A DNA stretch of 64,000 nt, from the NCBI GenBank assembly GCA_015709675.1, contig CP054182.1, forward strand, positions 1,157,448-1,221,447. The letters run 5' to 3'. The notes below the pieces were generated by a model. That model was given only the letters and a program-made list of their open reading frames with translations, had not been told where the DNA came from and did no database searches. Positions 46,899 to 63,930 of this stretch are shown piece after piece (position 1 is the first letter of the stretch; every line of letters starts with the position of its first letter). This stretch comes from Ignavibacteriales bacterium (GTDB lineage Bacteria; Bacteroidota; Ignavibacteria; Ignavibacteriales; Ignavibacteriaceae). Both the position numbers and the translations under genes were made by a program.

Positions 46899-46914
46899 TG
46901 GCACAATTTGTGCA
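46899..46914 (+). promoter_or_regulatory. Sigma-54-type promoter of the giant surface protein
   Basis: TGGCACAATTTGTGCA matches the consensus TGGCACG-N4-TTGCA, with GG and GC exactly 10 bases apart. The start codon lies 33 bases after it, with GAGG at 46937-46940 as the ribosome site. Confidence 0.65.
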
Positions 46915-55518: not shown

Positions 55519-55687
55519 AGTTCTGTGCTAACCACCTATTTTTTCCTAATTTCGGGATGCTGCAGGGTGTGAAGAATGCACCGGTAAAAATTACCCCGGA
55601 GGTTTTTAAGAAGAAAAGCATTCTCAAAACGGTGCTTGTTTTCTGATAAAAAAGGTCATATTTTATTGCTCTGTCAGTTTCTTTTTG

Positions 55688-55703
55688 TGGCACGCTTTTT
55701 TCT
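55688..55703 (+). promoter_or_regulatory. Sigma-54-type promoter of the first pilin-like gene
   Basis: TGGCACGCTTTTTTCT has a perfect -24 half (TGGCACG) and a weak -12 half (TTTC instead of TTGC). The start codon lies 52 bases after its last base, exactly as for the second pilin-like gene. GGTAAAAATTACC, an inverted repeat, lies 105 bases upstream (55583-55595). Confidence 0.5.
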
Positions 55704-55754
55704 ATATAAAGAGAAATTCATCAAACTAAATTTTTTCAAAACACAAAATAAACA

Positions 55755-56138
55755 TTGGGTCAGCAGCAGCTTCTTCTTATTGGAATTACCGTTATACTTA
55801 CTGGCACAGCTTTGCTTGTGGGTATCAGTATGTACCGCAGTTATGTGACCCAGATTAACAGAGAACAGATATTAAGTGACCTCAATATTATTGGTGCTGA
55901 CGCACAGGGTTACTACCGGCGTGCCATTCAACAGGGGGGCGGTCAAACCTCATTTCTGAATTATAAAATCCCCTTCGGTTTTCAGGAAAATCCAAGCGGG
56001 GTTTATACCATAAAAAGCGTGAGTAAAGATGAAATCGTAATTAACGGGCTGGAGATAGAAGCAGGGGATGACGGTAACCCGATTTCTTATGACGTGACTG
56101 TTACCGCGGGGAAGCTAACTTTTACCAAAAACAATTAA
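55755..56138 (+). CDS. Pilin-like protein 1
   Basis: A 127-residue protein starting MGQQQLLLIGITVILTGTAL, with one N-terminal hydrophobic helix continuing into an amphipathic helix (REQILSDLNIIGADAQGYYRR) and a short beta-rich head. This is the architecture of a mature type IV pilin, but there is no basic prepilin leader beyond 'MG' and no Glu at position 5. The start is TTG without a good ribosome site, and its promoter match is weaker, so it is probably a minor component. It is 38-45% alike by eye to the next gene product and stands directly upstream of it and the pil assembly genes. Confidence 0.78.
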   Translation: MGQQQLLLIGITVILTGTALLVGISMYRSYVTQINREQILSDLNIIGADAQGYYRRAIQQGGGQTSFLNYKIPFGFQENPSGVYTIKSVSKDEIVINGLEIEAGDDGNPISYDVTVTAGKLTFTKNN

Positions 56139-56260
56139 AATTCTTGAAAAAACCGGTACTTTTTGGAAAAGGACAGGTAAAAATTACTTGTAACAGTTAC
56201 CGTTTTTGCTCGCCACGGATATCCATCACCGTTTTTTAGCTTAATTCAAACATCCGGAAC

Positions 56261-56276
56261 TGGCACGATTTTTACA
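56261..56276 (+). promoter_or_regulatory. Sigma-54-type promoter of the second pilin-like gene
   Basis: TGGCACGATTTTTACA matches TGGCACG-N4-TTGCA except for A in place of G at the -12 GC. It ends 52 bases before the ATG. Possible activator sites GGTAAAAATTAC (56176-56187) and GTAACAGTTACC lie 65-85 bases upstream. Confidence 0.6.
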
Positions 56277-56327
56277 TTACTTAACTATAAAATTATTCTC
56301 AATCAATAATCTAAAGGAAAAACCACC

Positions 56328-56720
56328 ATGGGTCAGCAGCAATTGCTCCTTATCGTTCTCGGCGTAATTATCGTCGGTATTTCAGTAGTAGTAGGTATTA
56401 ACCTCTTCCAGACCAGTGCAGTTCAGGCAAACAGAGATGCAGTTATTGCAGACTTAAATGCTTTAGCAGCATCAGCTATGCAGTATTACAAAAAGCCAAC
56501 CAATCTCGGTGGCGGCGGAAATTCATTCGTTGGTTATGCAATCCCAACCGGAATGGGTTCAAATGCTAATGGTACCTATACAATCTCAGTTGCCGGTAAC
56601 GCAACAAGCATCACATTCCGGGGTGTAGGAACTGAAAAAGGTGATAACGGTACAGCAGGTGTAACCCACACAGCTGCAGTTACATCAACAGGCGGCATAA
56701 CCATCGCTAAAACCAACTAA
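56328..56720 (+). CDS. Pilin-like protein 2 (probable major subunit)
   Basis: A 130-residue protein beginning MGQQQLLLIVLGVIIVGISV. The N-terminal helix (residues 4-27) continues into an amphipathic part (NRDAVIADLNALAASAMQYY), where it resembles the end of the type IV pilin helix; a GlyGlyGlyGly turn and a beta-rich, Thr/Gly-rich head follow. If processed after Gly2, the mature protein starts QQQLLL and lacks Glu5. A good ribosome site (AAAGGA) precedes ATG, codons are strongly biased, and a strong terminator follows, all suggesting high expression. A type IV filament subunit is the best explanation from context. Confidence 0.82.
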   Translation: MGQQQLLLIVLGVIIVGISVVVGINLFQTSAVQANRDAVIADLNALAASAMQYYKKPTNLGGGGNSFVGYAIPTGMGSNANGTYTISVAGNATSITFRGVGTEKGDNGTAGVTHTAAVTSTGGITIAKTN

Positions 56721-56754: not shown

Positions 56755-56788
56755 AGCGGCACACGTTTTTAATGTGTGCCGCTTTTTT
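56755..56788 (+). terminator. Rho-independent terminator after the pilin-like genes
   Basis: A perfect 10-bp stem AGCGGCACAC (56755-56764) with GTGTGCCGCT (56774-56783), a 9-base loop and a T run. It separates the pilin genes from the pilC operon. The gap up to 57046 holds a loose GGGCTA...TAGCCC inverted repeat (56937-56972) and no gene. Confidence 0.93.
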
Positions 56789-57046
56789 ATTTTACCATAG
56801 GGGGTGAGAGACGTAACCACGGATTCAGTTTCCGGGAGAAACCTGGCTTTTTCCGGTGACCAGCCACCTAAAAAAAGCAGATAGATTCCTGAAATAAGTG
56901 ACTGAATACTGTGATAAACCTCAGGTTGTGAGCAGGGCTAAGTTATTGAAAAATAAGCAGAAAATAGCCCTGAACTCAACAAATGCTTCAATCTTAGCCA
57001 ATAATTAATTATATTTCAGGGTTAATGAAAAACAGAAGTTTTATCC

Positions 57047-58426
57047 ATGGTTGAATGCCGTTTCGTCGCTGAAAATCCGTCAGGCAAAGTGCTTTCCGGC
57101 AGTCTGGTTGCTGAAAACTTATCCGAAGCAAAGAAGAAAATCAATGCTATGGCGGAGAAAAATCAGCTTAAGATTAAGTCCATTGATAAAAAGGCAGCAT
57201 GGATTTATACGGCTAAAAAAGGGAACGAAAAGCCGATTAAGGGGGAACAGAAAGCGTTTAACAAGCAGGAAGTAATTGACGCGTTAACCCGGCTTGGGTA
57301 TGACAAAATCAATGTCAATAAGAAGCTGCTTGATATTAACCCTCCTCCTCCGGTTCAGGATGTGGTCACCTTTGTAAAAATCAGTTCCGAGCTGATGGAT
57401 CAAAAACTTCCATTCGGCGAAGTGATGAACCTGCTGATTAACGATACCCAGAATAAAACCCTCCGCGATACGCTTAAGGACATCAATAACGAATTAAAAA
57501 AAGGGGCGGACAGCCAGGTGGTTTTCAGCCGGTATCAGAGTGTATTCGGGAAATTCACCTCATATATGCTGGGTCTGGCCTCCAAGTCTGGTAATATGGC
57601 TGAGATCTACCGTGCCACGGCAAAGTTCCTTGAGCGGCAGATGGAATTTAAGAAGAGTTTAAAGAGCGCGCTGATCAGTCCGTTTGTTACCGTATTTGTA
57701 TTGATGCTGGCAGTGCTTTATTATATCGGATATATATTCCCGGAAACAGCGCTTATGTTCGCCAAGTTCGGCATTGACCTTCCTCCGATGACTGCCGCAA
57801 CGCTTGAGCTCAGTGATTTTCTTAAAGCTAATATTTTTCTGATTCTTGGTTCAATTATTGTCCCGATCGTGGTTCTTGGAAGGTTCTTTGCTACACCCAA
57901 GGGCAGGATCATGAAAGATAAATATATGCTTAAGATGCCGGTGATGGGCAATCTTATCCATAAAACGGTAATTGAAGTATTCTGCCGGGTGTTTTATACG
58001 TTGTATTCAGGTTCAGCAGAAAGCATTGAACCGATCAGAATAGCTGCCGAAGCATCTGATAATGCCTATTTTGAAAGCCAGATTAAAAATGTGGCAATAC
58101 CTCTGATGGTGAAAAAAGGTATCGGAATAACCGAAGCATTTGCTGCCGCGAATGTATTCACGGAAACCGCGCTTAACCGTTTTCACAGCGGAGAAGAAAC
58201 CGGCACGCTTAAGAACACAGCCCTGCAGCTTGCCAATTATTATGAAAGTGAAACGGTATTCCGTCTTAAGAGCATCATTGAGCTGATACAGGTTATTATC
58301 TCGATGATTATTATGGTTGTCATGATAGGCCTTACGCTGGTTTCAGCAGAAACAGCCACTATTTCACCAGACCCGAACAAAATGAAATCAGTTCTCGAAT
58401 TTGTAAGAGAGTATCCGGTATGTTAG
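57047..58426 (+). CDS. pilC: Type IV pilus inner membrane platform protein PilC/GspF
   Basis: Polytopic platform protein (459 residues) on which the motor ATPases act. Two GspF domains are visible: the first around residues 105-230 (FVKISSELMDQKLPFGEVMNLL ... YMLGLASKSGNM), the second around 310-440 (FCRVFYTLYSGSAESIEPIR ... FHSGEETGTLKNTALQLANY). Hydrophobic segments lie near 208-232, 260-280 and 425-445. An N-terminal extension of ~100 residues (MVECRFVAENPSGKVL ...) precedes the usual start. It opens the assembly operon and overlaps pilB by 7 bases. Confidence 0.92.
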   Translation: MVECRFVAENPSGKVLSGSLVAENLSEAKKKINAMAEKNQLKIKSIDKKAAWIYTAKKGNEKPIKGEQKAFNKQEVIDALTRLGYDKINVNKKLLDINPPPPVQDVVTFVKISSELMDQKLPFGEVMNLLINDTQNKTLRDTLKDINNELKKGADSQVVFSRYQSVFGKFTSYMLGLASKSGNMAEIYRATAKFLERQMEFKKSLKSALISPFVTVFVLMLAVLYYIGYIFPETALMFAKFGIDLPPMTAATLELSDFLKANIFLILGSIIVPIVVLGRFFATPKGRIMKDKYMLKMPVMGNLIHKTVIEVFCRVFYTLYSGSAESIEPIRIAAEASDNAYFESQIKNVAIPLMVKKGIGITEAFAAANVFTETALNRFHSGEETGTLKNTALQLANYYESETVFRLKSIIELIQVIISMIIMVVMIGLTLVSAETATISPDPNKMKSVLEFVREYPVC

Positions 58427-60210
58427 AAACGAATCTGGAATTCACTGATAAAATCGGTTATCTCCTTTTTAAGAAAGGGATTATCAACAGCGAGGTGCTT
58501 GAAAAGGCGCTCCGGTTAAAGAACGAAGACAAATCAAAACAGAAGAGGAATCTCGCGCAGATTCTTGTTCAGGATTTTGGTTATGAGCATGATGCCATTT
58601 TTAATGAAGTGGCCAGTCTGTATGCATTCCGCGAAATGGATGTAACCGCCGAAACCATAACGCCTGAAGTAGCCGACCGTATTAAAAAATTTGTAAACGG
58701 CGGTGGAGAATCATTAAAGAAAATGATTTTTGAGGTAAAAGTCATCCCCTATAAATATGATGACAGACAGAGGGATAAACTTTTAATAGCGGCCACTGAC
58801 CCCACTGACCGTAATATCCCGAAAATTGCGTTTGGTCTTAATGCCCGCAAATATGAAGTTATCTATGTCCGCAATAAGGAATATACAAAGCTGGTGGAAA
58901 AGCTCTTTCCGCCGGAAAATGAATACCTGAAGCAGCTTGAGGCAAACCCGACCGAGTTTAACGTTGAGATTGAGCAGGAGAAAGACCTCAGCGAGGATGA
59001 ACTTGAGAATGAAATCAACAAAAGCGCGCTTGTTAATCTGGTGGAAGCAGCGCTTGTTGAGGGAACCCGGAAAGGTATAAGCGATATACACTTTGTTCCC
59101 CGTTCAGCAAAACGGACGGATATCATGTTCCGTGTTGATGGTCTTCTGCAGTTATGGCACTCACAGGAGAATACTTCTCCGGAGGCGCTGATCGCGGTGG
59201 TCAAAGACAGGTCAAGAGGCATGGACCGTTTTGAGCGCGAGCGTTCACAGGACGGATTTATACAGCGCGAAATTGACGGTACCATTATCCGTTTCCGTGT
59301 ATCTGATATGCCGATGGTGGGAACGGAACTGAAAAATAAATTTGAATCCATCGTTATAAGAATACTTGATGACAGAAAAGTTATTAAGGATCTGAGCAAA
59401 CTCGGACTGATGGGTTACGCTAAAGATGCATTTGAAAAAGCAATCAATCAGCCGCAGGGAATGGTTATCCTGACCGGTCCTACGGGATCAGGTAAAAGTA
59501 CCACGCTTATCGCCGCGTTATATCAGGTGATAGACCCGACGGTAAACGTACTTACCGTAGAAGATCCTGTGGAGTATGTTATTGAGGGAGCCCGGCAGTT
59601 AAAGATCGGGCATAAGATGAATTTTGAACAGGCCATACGCGGTATTCTGCGGCATGACCCTGATATTGTGCTTGTGGGTGAGATGAGAGATAAAGAGACA
59701 GCCGAAGTTGCCATTAAACTGGCAAACACCGGTCACCTTACCTTCTCCACGCTACACACAAACGACGCACCGAGCGCGGTTTCCCGTTTATATAAAATGG
59801 GAATTGAACCCTTCCTTATTGCTTACGCAATTAATATCATTGTGGCACAGCGGCTTATCAGAAAGCTTTGCGTCTGCAAAAAGAAAGTGGATCAGATTGA
59901 TGATGACTATCTGAAGTCACTCGGTATTAATCCGGAGGAGTTCCGGGGTCTGGACATATATGAGGCAGTCGGGTGCGACAAATGCAGCAAGACGGGATAT
60001 AAAGGGCGTCTTGCAATTCATGAAGCGCTCTATTTTACCAAAGATCTCAGACAGATTATTATTAAGTCAGGTGAAGAGGTTGATGAGGAAAAGATCCGTA
60101 TGCAGGCAAAAAAAGACGGAACATTGAATCTGAGAGAATCCGGCCTGGAAAAAGTGAAGCAGGGGCTCACCTCGTTTGAAGAAGTTATCTCCTCGACGAT
60201 GGAAGATTAA
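58420..60210 (+). CDS. pilB: Type IV pilus extension ATPase PilB/GspE
   Basis: Hexameric assembly ATPase, 596 residues, cytoplasmic at the inner membrane. The N-terminal MshEN/GspE_N-like domain (~1-170) precedes the N2 region and the ATPase core. Walker A GPTGSGKST starts at residue 353 (Lys359). The Asp box is VEDPVEYVIEG, Walker B is IVLVGEMRD, and the His box is STLHTNDA. A zinc-binding segment CVCKKK ... CDKCSKTGYKGR marks it as PilB/GspE rather than PilT. It starts inside the end of pilC, so translation is coupled. Confidence 0.94.
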   Translation: MLETNLEFTDKIGYLLFKKGIINSEVLEKALRLKNEDKSKQKRNLAQILVQDFGYEHDAIFNEVASLYAFREMDVTAETITPEVADRIKKFVNGGGESLKKMIFEVKVIPYKYDDRQRDKLLIAATDPTDRNIPKIAFGLNARKYEVIYVRNKEYTKLVEKLFPPENEYLKQLEANPTEFNVEIEQEKDLSEDELENEINKSALVNLVEAALVEGTRKGISDIHFVPRSAKRTDIMFRVDGLLQLWHSQENTSPEALIAVVKDRSRGMDRFERERSQDGFIQREIDGTIIRFRVSDMPMVGTELKNKFESIVIRILDDRKVIKDLSKLGLMGYAKDAFEKAINQPQGMVILTGPTGSGKSTTLIAALYQVIDPTVNVLTVEDPVEYVIEGARQLKIGHKMNFEQAIRGILRHDPDIVLVGEMRDKETAEVAIKLANTGHLTFSTLHTNDAPSAVSRLYKMGIEPFLIAYAINIIVAQRLIRKLCVCKKKVDQIDDDYLKSLGINPEEFRGLDIYEAVGCDKCSKTGYKGRLAIHEALYFTKDLRQIIIKSGEEVDEEKIRMQAKKDGTLNLRESGLEKVKQGLTSFEEVISSTMED

Positions 60211-60260: not shown

Positions 60261-61487
60261 GTGATAGAAGAAACCAAAGCAGCGATAAAAAAAATTACCG
60301 ATGCCATTCCCCTGACCGTAATGGGGCAGGACCGTATCAATTATATCATCGAGCAGTTTAAAAAATTCACTGATGAGGAACGGCTTCTTTTTCTGAAGGT
60401 AATAAACCGGATCCTCACCAATATGATTGAACGTGAAGCCTCCGATATTGAGATAGGCGGCTACGGAAACGACGGATTTATCTGGATGCGCATCTTCGGA
60501 AAGAAAGAACGGGTTAAAGACCTTCCGCAGTTTACCCTGGATGAATTTGTTGTTCTGATTCTTAATATCCTCAACGAAAATCAGCGCCGTTATCTTATTG
60601 TAACCAGAAGCATAGATATGAGTTATACTTTTATCTATGAAAGGAAAAACGTACCGGTACGTTTCAGAGCAACGGTCTATTTTGATCTTGACAGCATCGC
60701 GTTAAATATGCGTGCTATTTCATCGGCAGTCCGCTCTATTGAATCAATGGAATTCCATCCCAACGTGCTGAAGGTAATGAGCCATATGCATGTGAAGTTC
60801 GGGCTTACGCTGATAACCGGTATTACAGGTTCAGGAAAGTCTTCGACTCTTGATGCAATCATTGATTTTCACAATAAGCTTGATACTGCTCACATAGTTA
60901 TCATCGCGTCCCCCCTTGAGTTTGTACACAAGTCAAACCGGGCAATCGTGCGGCACAGGGAAGTGGGAAGGGATGTGCTGACCTTTAAGGATGGCGTTAT
61001 CCAGTCATTGCGCCAGGATCCTGATATTATCGTTATCGGTGAAATGAGAGATCCGGATACCATTATGGCGGCTCTTGAGGTAACTGATACCGGCCACAAA
61101 GTTTTTTCGACACTCCATACATCTTCCGCGGTTGAGTCCATTGACCGCATCATCGCTGAAGTGCATCCAAATGAGCAGGACAGAGTGCGCAACAGACTGG
61201 CAGATGTGCTCACCTGCGTGGTCTCGCAGAAACTGGTTCCGACCATTAACGGTAGAGTTGCGCTTGCCAAGGAAGTACTGCTTGTGAACTCGAGCGTCAA
61301 AGCAGCCATCAAGAACAATAACACCAGTGAAATATATATGATGATCAATCAGGGAGGGCAGGTTGGCATGCAGACCATGGAGCAGGATCTGAAGCGGCTC
61401 TATATGCAGAAGAAGATTTCTCTTGAAACCGCGATGAGTTTTTCGAATAATAAAGTACGTATGCAGCAACTCTTAACGGCGGTCTGA
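60261..61487 (+). CDS. pilT: PilT-like retraction ATPase with altered Asp box
   Basis: A 408-residue ATPase of the PilT/PilU type without the zinc segment of PilB. Walker A is GITGSGKSS (Gly187-Ser195), Walker B IIVIGEMRD, His box TGHKVFSTLHT. The Asp box, normally IEDPIEF, reads IASPLEFVH: Ala216-Ser217 replace the acidic pair, which may change nucleotide hydrolysis. The segment near the retraction motif reads SSVKAAIKNNNT in place of AIRNLIRE. It starts at GTG without a strong ribosome site, 50 bases after pilB. Its stop overlaps the next ATG by one base. Pilus retraction or motor modulation is likely. Confidence 0.88.
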   Translation: MIEETKAAIKKITDAIPLTVMGQDRINYIIEQFKKFTDEERLLFLKVINRILTNMIEREASDIEIGGYGNDGFIWMRIFGKKERVKDLPQFTLDEFVVLILNILNENQRRYLIVTRSIDMSYTFIYERKNVPVRFRATVYFDLDSIALNMRAISSAVRSIESMEFHPNVLKVMSHMHVKFGLTLITGITGSGKSSTLDAIIDFHNKLDTAHIVIIASPLEFVHKSNRAIVRHREVGRDVLTFKDGVIQSLRQDPDIIVIGEMRDPDTIMAALEVTDTGHKVFSTLHTSSAVESIDRIIAEVHPNEQDRVRNRLADVLTCVVSQKLVPTINGRVALAKEVLLVNSSVKAAIKNNNTSEIYMMINQGGQVGMQTMEQDLKRLYMQKKISLETAMSFSNNKVRMQQLLTAV

Positions 61488-63040
61488 TGGAGCAGTTCGT
61501 CTGCATCTATTGCGAGGGAAATGATTCTAAATTTGCGGTCTTTGAACGGGACAAGGGAAAACTGCGCCTGATAAAAACCGCATCTATAGATTTGTTTAAA
61601 CCCTCCTCAGGCGCGCAGTCTGAGATGCCGGTATTTGATGCAGGTGAAGGTGAACTTACCCTTGAGTCGCTGGCAGGCGATATGCTTTCCCAGAACATGA
61701 ATGACTCTGTCGGGGGAGGCGGCCAGCTTATCGAAGGAGTGGTTAACGCGGAGCTCGCGGGAATAAAACTGCATCAGTGCAAGTTTGTGCCTATCCTTAC
61801 CGAACCGGCGCTGTTTTACCAGACTTCAAATAAAAAAGGGACAACCGGAGCCATACCTAAGTTTACCCAGGAAGTAACATCAGAAGCCGAGGGAAAACTT
61901 AAATCAAAAAAGAAAACCACCAAATCTGATGAGTCTGTCGGCCAGGTTGAGATAGCAGAGGGAGCAACGCTGCGTGTCCGCTTACGTTCAGATACCAGCT
62001 GTATTCAGCTTGTTAACAAGCTTGCCCGTTTTAATAACCGGCGTTTTTATAAAATCAGCTCTGTTAAGAGTGCTGAAATATCCCTTGCCACCTATGTTGC
62101 CAAACGGAAGAAATTCTTTCCGGATGACTATTCCCTTGTTGTATATATCGGTAAGGAATACAGCAAGCTGATTTTTCTCTATGGAAGAAAAATCAAGCAT
62201 ATCGGCTCAACGCTTGATATCGGAACAACAAATCTGCATACCTACGATGTGTATTTTTCCAAGATACTGCTCGAAATGGAAAACGGCGCGGTGCCGAATC
62301 TTGATAATATCATCGTCTGCGGTGAGGATGTTTCTGAGAACCTGGTGCTCTCCTTTTACGGTACCTTCCCTGAAATCAATGTCAGCCGGCTTGAATTTGA
62401 TGATGTTGATATATCAGGCCTTTCAGAAACAGACATAGAAAAAGTTTCCTCATTCAGCGTACCCATAGCGGCGATGAGTGAAATACATGAAGAACTGATA
62501 AAGAAAACCCCGGGAATCAATCTGATTCCGAACTGGGTAGTGGAAGAACAAAAACTGTTGCAGTTTGCCTGGCATGGGTATCTGATGCTTCCTCTGCTGG
62601 TTCTGGTTCCCATTTTTATAACGCTGCAGATACTCACAGGGAGCACGGAGCTTAAGGGGATTGAGAATGAAATCAGGGTGAAAGAGCAGTTAAAGCAGCA
62701 GAATCTTGAGATTGTTGCGCAGATAGAAGCTCTGGATGGCAGAATAAACAGTTTTGATCAGACACAGACCATCCTGGACTCAGTGAGCGTGGGGTCTGAG
62801 GTCTGGGGCAGAACCCTGAACCGTTTCTCCTCACTCGGAATTGAGCGGAGAGGATTCTGGCTGAGCAAGATATCCATTGATGAAAAGAAGTTTATACAGG
62901 CAGACGGATATTCGCTTAATACCGATATCCTGCCGCAGGTCACTGCACGCCTGGACTCCGCGACGCTGAAAAGTGTTTATTATGAACCGATACGGGAAAG
63001 CGATGCATACCGTTTTCAGATAACGCTCAGGGAACAATAG
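61487..63040 (+). CDS. Fused PilM-PilN (GspL-like) alignment protein
   Basis: A 517-residue protein that joins two pilus alignment subunits. Residues 1-~340 form an actin-like PilM part (FVCIYCEGNDSKFAVFE at the start, LVVYIGKEYSKLIFLYGRK, IGSTLDIGTTNLHTYD, IIVCGEDVSENL). The PilN signature GINLIPNW follows at ~342, then a membrane helix (~363-383), a coiled coil (~390-425) and a ferredoxin-like periplasmic domain. In classical T4P systems PilM and PilN are separate and PilM grips the N-terminus of PilN; the fusion makes this bond permanent, as in GspL of type II secretion. A low-complexity Lys-rich loop (~128-148) interrupts the PilM part. Confidence 0.85.
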   Translation: MEQFVCIYCEGNDSKFAVFERDKGKLRLIKTASIDLFKPSSGAQSEMPVFDAGEGELTLESLAGDMLSQNMNDSVGGGGQLIEGVVNAELAGIKLHQCKFVPILTEPALFYQTSNKKGTTGAIPKFTQEVTSEAEGKLKSKKKTTKSDESVGQVEIAEGATLRVRLRSDTSCIQLVNKLARFNNRRFYKISSVKSAEISLATYVAKRKKFFPDDYSLVVYIGKEYSKLIFLYGRKIKHIGSTLDIGTTNLHTYDVYFSKILLEMENGAVPNLDNIIVCGEDVSENLVLSFYGTFPEINVSRLEFDDVDISGLSETDIEKVSSFSVPIAAMSEIHEELIKKTPGINLIPNWVVEEQKLLQFAWHGYLMLPLLVLVPIFITLQILTGSTELKGIENEIRVKEQLKQQNLEIVAQIEALDGRINSFDQTQTILDSVSVGSEVWGRTLNRFSSLGIERRGFWLSKISIDEKKFIQADGYSLNTDILPQVTARLDSATLKSVYYEPIRESDAYRFQITLREQ

Positions 63041-63048
63041 GCAGAGCG

Positions 63049-63930
63049 ATGGACAGAAAACTTAAAAATACACTCGCGCTTGCCGGTCTGGTAATACTGC
63101 TGGCAGCACTCGGCTTCGGATATATATATCTGTTTCAGCGTCCGGAAATAAAGGAGCGGACGGAAGTACTGAACCAGCTTAAAGCGCAGGAGTTTGATAC
63201 GGAATCGCTAAACCTGCAGCTTGCCGAAAGAACCGAACGCGCCCGCACGCTGGACTCAATACTTGCCGCAAGGAAGTTTAATATTCCCGTAAATATTACC
63301 ACGCTGCAGTTTTATGAATTCATGAATATGGCAACCAAGCTGATATCGCGTGATGCACGTGTTAATATCGAATATATTGAAACAATGCCTGAACGGGAAT
63401 TCTTCTTTCATAGATACAAAGTTGACGGCGTTGCATCGTATGCGGATCTTTATCAGCTCATCTATGCAATTGAACAGAGCAAAGAGCTGAAAAAGATACT
63501 TGAACCGGAATTTACCAACTATGTAGATCCGAATGTTGAAAGCACGCCCCGTTTTCTTGTGAATTTTTCCTTTTCCGTGAAGGTGTATTTTTCTGATAAT
63601 GACCGGTTTACTACTGTCGGTTACTCAGAAAATATGCTTAGAACCAGCATGCGGTATGATATATTCTCCCCTCTGATTGCAACCAGTGTGCCGCTTAATT
63701 CTGAAGGGCTGCTTGATGTGCAGGGAGCAAAACTGCTTGCTGTGGTTCCGGAGGGGATTTTTGTGGCGGATTCAAAAGGAGAAACCTATCTGCTGGCTGA
63801 AGGGGATAAAGTGTATCTGGGTTATCTGACAAAAATTAATTACGAACAAAACACCGCGAAGTTTATTCTGAATAAAGGGGGAATTGTTGAAAATCTGGTG
63901 CTTGTCCTTGAAAAAGAGAAACGGAAATAG
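63049..63930 (+). CDS. Fused PilO-PilP-like alignment protein
   Basis: A 293-residue protein. One membrane helix (LALAGLVILLAALGFGYIYL, residues 10-29) is followed by a coiled coil (~35-72) and a PilO/GspM-type ferredoxin-like domain (~80-190). The C-terminal ~90 residues resemble the PilP/GspC homology domain: YDIFSPLI, then AKLLAVVPEGIFVADSKGE, YLLAEGDKVYLGYLTKI and a final strand VENLVLVLE. In other systems PilO and PilP are separate, and PilP is a lipoprotein; here no lipobox is needed. It should link the PilMN protein to the secretin. It starts 8 bases after the PilMN gene. Confidence 0.78.
   Translation: MDRKLKNTLALAGLVILLAALGFGYIYLFQRPEIKERTEVLNQLKAQEFDTESLNLQLAERTERARTLDSILAARKFNIPVNITTLQFYEFMNMATKLISRDARVNIEYIETMPEREFFFHRYKVDGVASYADLYQLIYAIEQSKELKKILEPEFTNYVDPNVESTPRFLVNFSFSVKVYFSDNDRFTTVGYSENMLRTSMRYDIFSPLIATSVPLNSEGLLDVQGAKLLAVVPEGIFVADSKGETYLLAEGDKVYLGYLTKINYEQNTAKFILNKGGIVENLVLVLEKEKRK

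Follow-up and report, generated by a model that had tools for sequence, protein, structure and literature searches.

Predicted sigma-54 promoters, putative GTAA-N3-TTAC enhancers and a pilus-linked NtrC-type regulator at a pilin-like locus of an Ignavibacteriales bacterium

Two adjacent pilin-like genes of an Ignavibacteriales bacterium are each preceded by a sigma-54-type promoter element. Control of pilA by PilS/PilR and RpoN (sigma-54) is known in Pseudomonas, Myxococcus and Geobacter. This locus raises the question of whether pilin genes of a quite different lineage are under the same kind of control and, if so, which activator would act on them. We analysed a 64,000-nt stretch of contig CP054182.1 (assembly GCA_015709675.1; hereafter the window), the genome from which it comes, and related loci within and outside the order.

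As originally predicted, two 16-mers with a perfect TGGCACG −24 half lie on the forward strand, TGGCACGCTTTTTTCT at 55688 to 55703 and TGGCACGATTTTTACA at 56261 to 56276, from which transcription would be expected to start near 55714 and 56287, respectively. Their −12 halves are TTTCT and TTACA. Each site has one mismatch to TGGCACG-N4-TTGCW, and in both it is the G of the −12 GC pair that is missing, with the TT and the C kept. The first −12 half, which had been described as the weaker, is thus not clearly weaker than the second; both are equally off consensus. The 52-base spacing common to the two sites does hold in the window, where the end of each site plus 52 gives the start codon (51 bases between), but it is not conserved in relatives. 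Among 145 of the relatives' upstream regions, 34 have a site with at most two mismatches (window genes included), at distances of 33 to 144 from the start. The common distance of the two window promoters is incidental. The first gene (55755 to 56138, forward strand) has a TTG start and encodes 127 amino acids (xGQQQLLLIGIT...), apparently without a leader peptide and probably a minor subunit. The second (56328 to 56720, forward strand) has an ATG start and encodes 130 amino acids (beginning MGQQQLLLIVLG), also leaderless, with a type IV pilin-like fold; it is the probable major pilin. A TTG start had been taken as consistent with a minor subunit, and it fits a lower-expressed first gene without being proof of lower expression. 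The first gene has a TTG or GTG start in 33 of 69 clusters, and the last gene has ATG in all 69.

Relatives of the second gene's protein occur in 87 of 96 genomes of the order. The named relatives are the best 78 of at least 431 confirmed candidates and come mostly from Ignavibacteria, but also from MAGs labelled KSB1, Calditrichaeota, Kryptonia and others. Upstream regions of up to 300 nt were taken from the relatives' loci, duplicates were removed, and the remainder was compared with dinucleotide shuffles. For the order, one pilin locus each was read in 84 of the 87 pilin-bearing genomes (G071, G092 and G095 were left out, two of which have no regulator of the kind described below); 82 genomes gave 162 pilin genes, and G053 and G054 gave none.

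A motif search without prior sigma-54 information returned the palindrome GTAA-N3-TTAC. In its first form this motif combined true palindromes with a coding segment conserved in the preceding pilin gene, and upstream open reading frames of at least 90 codons were therefore trimmed before counting. The 122 non-coding upstream regions contain 74 copies of the palindrome, spread over 50 regions (0.9 in shuffles), whereas other spacers from 0 to 12 gave 0 to 4 copies. The converse form, TTAC-N2-GTAA, has 42 copies in 39 regions (1.2 in shuffles), and the two interlock as arrays such as TTAC-N2-GTAA-N3-TTAC. The 350-nt stretches upstream of pilin genes contain 145 palindromes in 79,694 nt (1.82 per kb), whereas the remainder of these loci has 60 in 865,984 nt (0.069 per kb), with redundant loci kept in both counts. 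The position is also preferred. In 21 pairs, drawn from 14 genera, the distance from the palindrome centre to the −24 half downstream of it is 64 to 72 nt, compared with 6 and 7 pairs in the adjoining 9-nt bins, and a second copy sometimes lies 13 nt further upstream. With one mismatch allowed, a palindrome stands 55 to 90 nt upstream of the −24 half in 36 of the 162 genes; spacers of 1, 2, 4 and 5 in the same test gave 4, 1, 7 and 2. This position, some 90 to 125 nt before the expected transcription start, is a common geometry for enhancers of sigma-54 activators, and by sequence and placement GTAA-N3-TTAC looks like such an enhancer.

The window has three of these putative enhancers, to which no strand is assigned. 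For the first gene, GTAAAAATTAC at 55584 to 55594 (inside GGTAAAAATTACC) is centred 99 nt upstream of the −24 half. For the second, another copy of GTAAAAATTAC at 56177 to 56187 and GTAACAGTTAC at 56190 to 56200 are centred 79 and 66 nt upstream. A promoter for each gene, as first proposed, is supported in the window, but in relatives it is mostly the first gene alone that has its own palindrome. Among 69 clusters with at least two genes, 40 have the exact palindrome before the first gene alone, 8 before each of the first two and 5 before the second alone, whereas 16 have it before neither; separate control of the two genes, as in the window, is thus found in a minority of clusters. None of nine sister-lineage genomes with a readable pilin upstream region (of ten with relatives of the regulator) has the exact palindrome, which makes it a feature of this order, at least in its exact form.

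The original prediction looked to a PilR/NtrC-type activator, and the genome encodes 13 strong sigma-54 activator domains among 18 matches, one of them in the pilus cluster. This is an NtrC-type response regulator with a receiver domain (PF00072), a sigma-54 activator AAA+ domain (PF00158) and a Fis-type HTH (PF02954), encoded on the reverse strand at G000:C1:1228088-1229458 (L170:6641-8011). Its gene closes the pilus cluster some 14 kb beyond the pilin genes, after a secretin and other two-component genes, and adjoins that of a hybrid histidine kinase. Orthologues are present in 86 of the 96 genomes (at least 392 bits, against at most 365 for paralogues). In 55 of 75 genomes with both places at hand, the regulator and a pilin gene share one contig within 25 kb (for G006, G047 and G092, with pilin matches on several contigs, the match on the regulator's contig was taken). 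The two also co-occur, with both in 82 genomes, the regulator only in 4, the pilin only in 5 and neither in 5 (Fisher test, P = 0.0004, uncorrected for kinship). An exact palindrome is present in 60 of the 79 regulator-bearing genomes and in none of three that lack the regulator (P = 0.017; two of the three belong to one genus, and G057 offered 50 nt only). Since the genome has 12 other strong activators, the assignment of this regulator rests on synteny and co-occurrence, from which it seems likely that it controls the pilin genes via GTAA-N3-TTAC.

The alternative that survives best accepts the RpoN promoters as real and has the palindrome bound by some other regulator, either another of the 13 activators or a repressor, leaving the pilus-linked NtrC-type protein to control something else. 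Such a division of roles would fit the abundance of activator domains in the genome and the fact that 19 of the 79 regulator-bearing genomes show no exact palindrome in the pilin loci that were read; regulators of other families, too, recognise short GTAA/TTAC dyads. We nevertheless consider it unlikely, given the synteny and co-occurrence just described, the lack of a palindrome in both genomes read of the regulator-less genus, and a position typical of sigma-54 activator sites. Control of the palindromes by the pilus-linked regulator is the reading we prefer.

The loop of this regulator is unusual. It reads GAFTDA in 29 and GSFTDA in 1 of 30 loci from the order, none of which has the canonical GAFTGA. 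Ten sister-lineage genomes have relatives of the regulator at 47 to 51% identity, and the 13 sister-lineage loci above 410 bits read GAFTDA (8), GAFTNA (4) or GSFTDA (1). The glycine is kept in 14 of 15 weaker matches outside the order (the exception, L271, has GAFTDA) and in 11 of 12 paralogues from the same genome (the exception, L010, has GAFTNA). Asp or Asn at this position is thus not unique to the regulator's clade. The GAFTDA/GAFTNA proteins are a clade of NtrC-type activators that in the order are mostly encoded in pilus clusters. A connection of the GAFTGA loop with the −12 region has been published. Strict co-evolution of the GAFTDA loop with a relaxed −12 half is not supported here, because several sister lineages with GAFTDA or GAFTNA keep the −12 G (for example TTGTA, TTGAA, TTGCA).

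Control by sigma-54 also presupposes the sigma factor itself. The genome has a single copy of rpoN (414.7 bits against a curated cut-off of 277.35), whose product carries ARRTIAKYRE, which we take to be an RpoN-box-like motif. The gene is present in 95 of the 96 genomes, in 93 of them over the cut-off; it was not found in G054, an assembly of 180 contigs. Furthermore, the promoter type and its internal spacing are conserved in relatives. TGGCACG-N4-TTGCW with at most two mismatches occurs in 37 of 139 non-redundant upstream regions, compared with 1.6 in shuffles, and alternative spacers of 2, 3, 5, 6 and 7 gave 4, 6, 5, 1 and 7 regions, so that enrichment is confined to the sigma-54 spacing. 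When sites were picked by TGGYAY alone (59 sites, 34 genera), the consensus T, T, G and C at the −12 positions were present in 44, 44, 24 and 15 of them. The rise of T, T and G at positions that had not been selected points to a strict −24 half and a relaxed −12 half at sigma-54 spacing. Near-canonical sites, TGGCACGGGCATTGCG and TGGCACGGCTGTTGCC, precede a gene of the same family in two MAGs filed outside Ignavibacteria (L140 and L151). Predicted as they are from sequence, sigma-54 promoters before the pilin genes are well supported, in agreement with the sigma-54-type control first suggested for both genes.

It is because the −12 half is poor that one may ask whether a sigma factor other than RpoN, or some other DNA-binding protein, recognises the TGGCA element, with the true promoters elsewhere. 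The −12 G is missing in both window sites, the −12 C in relatives is barely above background (15 of 59 against about 9 expected), and halves such as TTTCT and TTTAT are common there. A different reader of TGGCA would have to account for enrichment at the sigma-54 spacing only, for the unselected rise of T, T and G, for the near-canonical sites in the two outlying MAGs, and for a sigma-54 activator linked to the pilus cluster; we regard it as improbable, more so than a different regulator at the palindrome, and retain RpoN as the probable reader. As a separate observation, TTGGCAC followed by a T-tract and TATA recurs about 150 to 260 nt upstream of pilin-like genes in L054, L083, L085, L086 and L061. 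This element lies farther upstream than the main site, has no −12 GC and is possibly a second promoter type.

The original prediction proposed a genome-wide scan with the promoter matrix, and this gave no enrichment. With at most one mismatch, TGGCACG-N4-TTGCW has 24 matches on both strands of the 4.21-Mb genome and its reversed control has 22; a simple test places 15 of the 24 within open reading frames. The matrix alone is therefore weak evidence, and conservation in relatives decides. Two such sites directly upstream of adjacent paralogues are very unlikely to arise by chance (about 3 × 10−6 per strand-position). That both are random TGGCACG words in AT-rich intergenic DNA would suit the genome count and the window count at two mismatches (8 against 8.2 expected), but it is scarcely credible in view of conservation over many genera, the fixed internal spacing and the preferred distance to a second element.

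Scans for a wider regulon were likewise at control level. A palindrome followed by TGGCA 30 to 90 nt on was found 18 times in the genome and 18 times in the control, so that signal and noise were not separated. A tighter compound pattern gave 51 matches in 36 of the 96 genomes, against 41 for the reversed control; 12 of the 51 precede pilin-like genes, and the remaining 39 do not exceed the control, so that the scan of the 96 genomes revealed no wider regulon of this pattern. Two window candidates were dropped: TGGCACAATTTGTGCA at 46899 as a promoter, being at chance level at two mismatches, and a riboswitch, with no Rfam family over threshold in the window. Elsewhere in the genome, TGGTACGTTTATTGCA (G000:C1:276907-276922, L023) has a full −12 half and ends 53 positions upstream of a 482-amino acid open reading frame with a signal-like N terminus. 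It is a possible further RpoN target.

Taken as a whole, the circuit would work as follows. The products of the two adjacent genes would be the pilins of a type IV pilus-like machine, for the assembly of which the genes immediately downstream encode relatives of PilC, PilB and PilT, with a secretin just beyond the window. Each pilin gene would be transcribed from its own RpoN promoter. The NtrC-type regulator at the cluster's end, answering to the neighbouring hybrid histidine kinase, would most likely bind GTAA-N3-TTAC at 66 to 99 nt upstream of the −24 elements. Its AAA+ domain, with GAFTDA for GAFTGA, would then open the RpoN-polymerase complex at promoters with a strict −24 and a relaxed −12 half. 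We put the probability of this circuit, comprising pilin genes, RpoN promoters and a pilus-linked regulator acting on the palindromes, at a little over three-quarters.

Downstream of the pilin genes on the forward strand are genes for a PilC/GspF-family platform protein (57047 to 58426; PF00482, below the NCBIfam equivalog cut-offs), a PilB/GspE-family ATPase (58420 to 60210; PF00437, with PilB as best NCBIfam model, under its cut-off) and a PilT-family ATPase (60261 to 61487; 309.3 bits, narrowly below the NCBIfam cut-off of 319.1), and a secretin gene lies just beyond the window. A hairpin, GCGGCACACG/TGTGTGCCGC, followed by a T-run at 56756 to 56789 (forward strand; read by eye) is a probable intrinsic terminator at the boundary between the pilin and assembly genes. 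The genes at 61487 to 63040 and 63049 to 63930 occupy the usual place of pilM, pilN and pilO and have no significant Pfam or NCBIfam match. Their products are probably diverged inner-membrane pilus proteins.

The pilin-like proteins themselves have no significant match in Pfam or NCBIfam. A phmmer search against the PDB gave a single weak pilin match (1oqw, E = 0.24), and Foldseek gave none with E < 0.001. The model of the second protein (pLDDT 86.4, pTM 0.70) has a helix from residue 2 to 55 and a four-stranded sheet, so that the predicted structure has the N-terminal hydrophobic helix and C-terminal sheet of a pilin fold. VIA-align places type IV or type IV-like pilins in all of its first 21 rows (best Z 9.8; caution is advised below Z 13 with long helices). 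Residue 1 of full-length 6xxd, 5vxx, 1oqw and 3sok aligns to model residues 2 to 4, and 8tum and 9laa align from their own residues 10 and 6.

GQQQLLLI at positions 2 to 9 is invariant in 44 aligned relatives, an invariance that is partly built in, because the named relatives were found with peptide patterns including MGQQQLLL and the genome census required a GQ start motif. In a whole-protein search, the matches listed all begin at query residue 1. For 150 of the 162 genes, reading upstream in frame from the start leads to a stop codon, at a median distance of 5 codons, before any other start codon is reached, which leaves no space for a leader. An open reading frame in L298 (G088) beginning MGFSTLLDIIGSMIIGGILL is perhaps another leaderless pilin-like protein.

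An A24 prepilin peptidase (PF01478) was not found in this genome. The family is over its cut-off in 5 of the 96 genomes of the order, all five of which also have the pilin; one more has a match below it, and 91 have none over it. The search covered the A24 family, and the same model matched in 12 of 14 control genomes. From the gene starts, the fold and the absence of the peptidase comes our boldest reading, a pilus built without a leader or prepilin peptidase. If the start methionine alone were removed, leaving Gly-Gln-Gln-Gln, a prepilin peptidase would be unneeded, and the absence of pilD would be accounted for by leaderless pilins. Since prepilin peptidase cleavage is usually held to be a defining step of type IV pili, an exception throughout most of an order would be notable. 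A 2014 review reports prepilin peptidases from every phylum that it lists as having type IV prepilins, Nanoarchaeota excepted (PMC4471445). Canonical e-pilins have been reported from an Ignavibacteriales bin (PMC7399161), and the group may therefore have ordinary pilins as well. Literature text within our coverage, which left out most subscription papers, held nothing relevant on the N-terminal motif or on leaderless or peptidase-independent pilins. A broader proposal is that Ignavibacteria and their relatives make type IV pili from leaderless pilins expressed via a dedicated RpoN circuit, with an Asp/Asn-loop activator clade, GTAA-N3-TTAC enhancers and a relaxed −12 half; we advance it tentatively, at slightly less than even odds.

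These findings would extend RpoN/NtrC-type control of pilins to Ignavibacteriota, with concrete candidates for enhancer and activator, and they make the two genes good candidates for pilA, which has been reported as absent from Melioribacter. Flagella and pili are recurrent subjects of sigma-54 control (PMC3162934), and the main text of a 2025 sigma-54 survey does not contain 'ignavibacter' (PMC12316311). Compared with the PilS/PilR-RpoN systems of pilA, the common ground is an RpoN promoter (predicted here), an NtrC-type regulator and kinase encoded in the pilus cluster, and upstream binding sites, which are putative here. The present system differs in phylum, in its GTAA-N3-TTAC enhancer, its GAFTDA loop and its relaxed −12 halves, as well as in a hybrid kinase with its own receiver domain and in pilins without a leader. 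The loop substitution is itself known. GAFTDA has been listed with the variants that should retain activity and is carried by DVU2106 of Desulfovibrio (PMC4641369), and Asp or Asn at the loop glycine of NorR (G266D/N) makes it fully constitutive (PMC2941729). Here, in contrast, a mostly pilus-linked clade of orthologues is fixed for Asp or Asn (30 of 30 loci in the order, 13 of 13 above 410 bits in sister lineages); if the broader proposal is true, the substitution that frees NorR from its signal would be the natural state. With PilA4 of Thermus (6xxd) and the PAK pilin (1oqw), the modelled protein shares a long N-terminal helix and a four-stranded sheet, its residues 2 and 4 aligning to chain residue 1 of the two structures (Z 9.1 and 7.9, respectively). 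Unlike these type IV pilins, it has no leader and no Glu at mature position 5, and most genomes of its order have no A24 peptidase.
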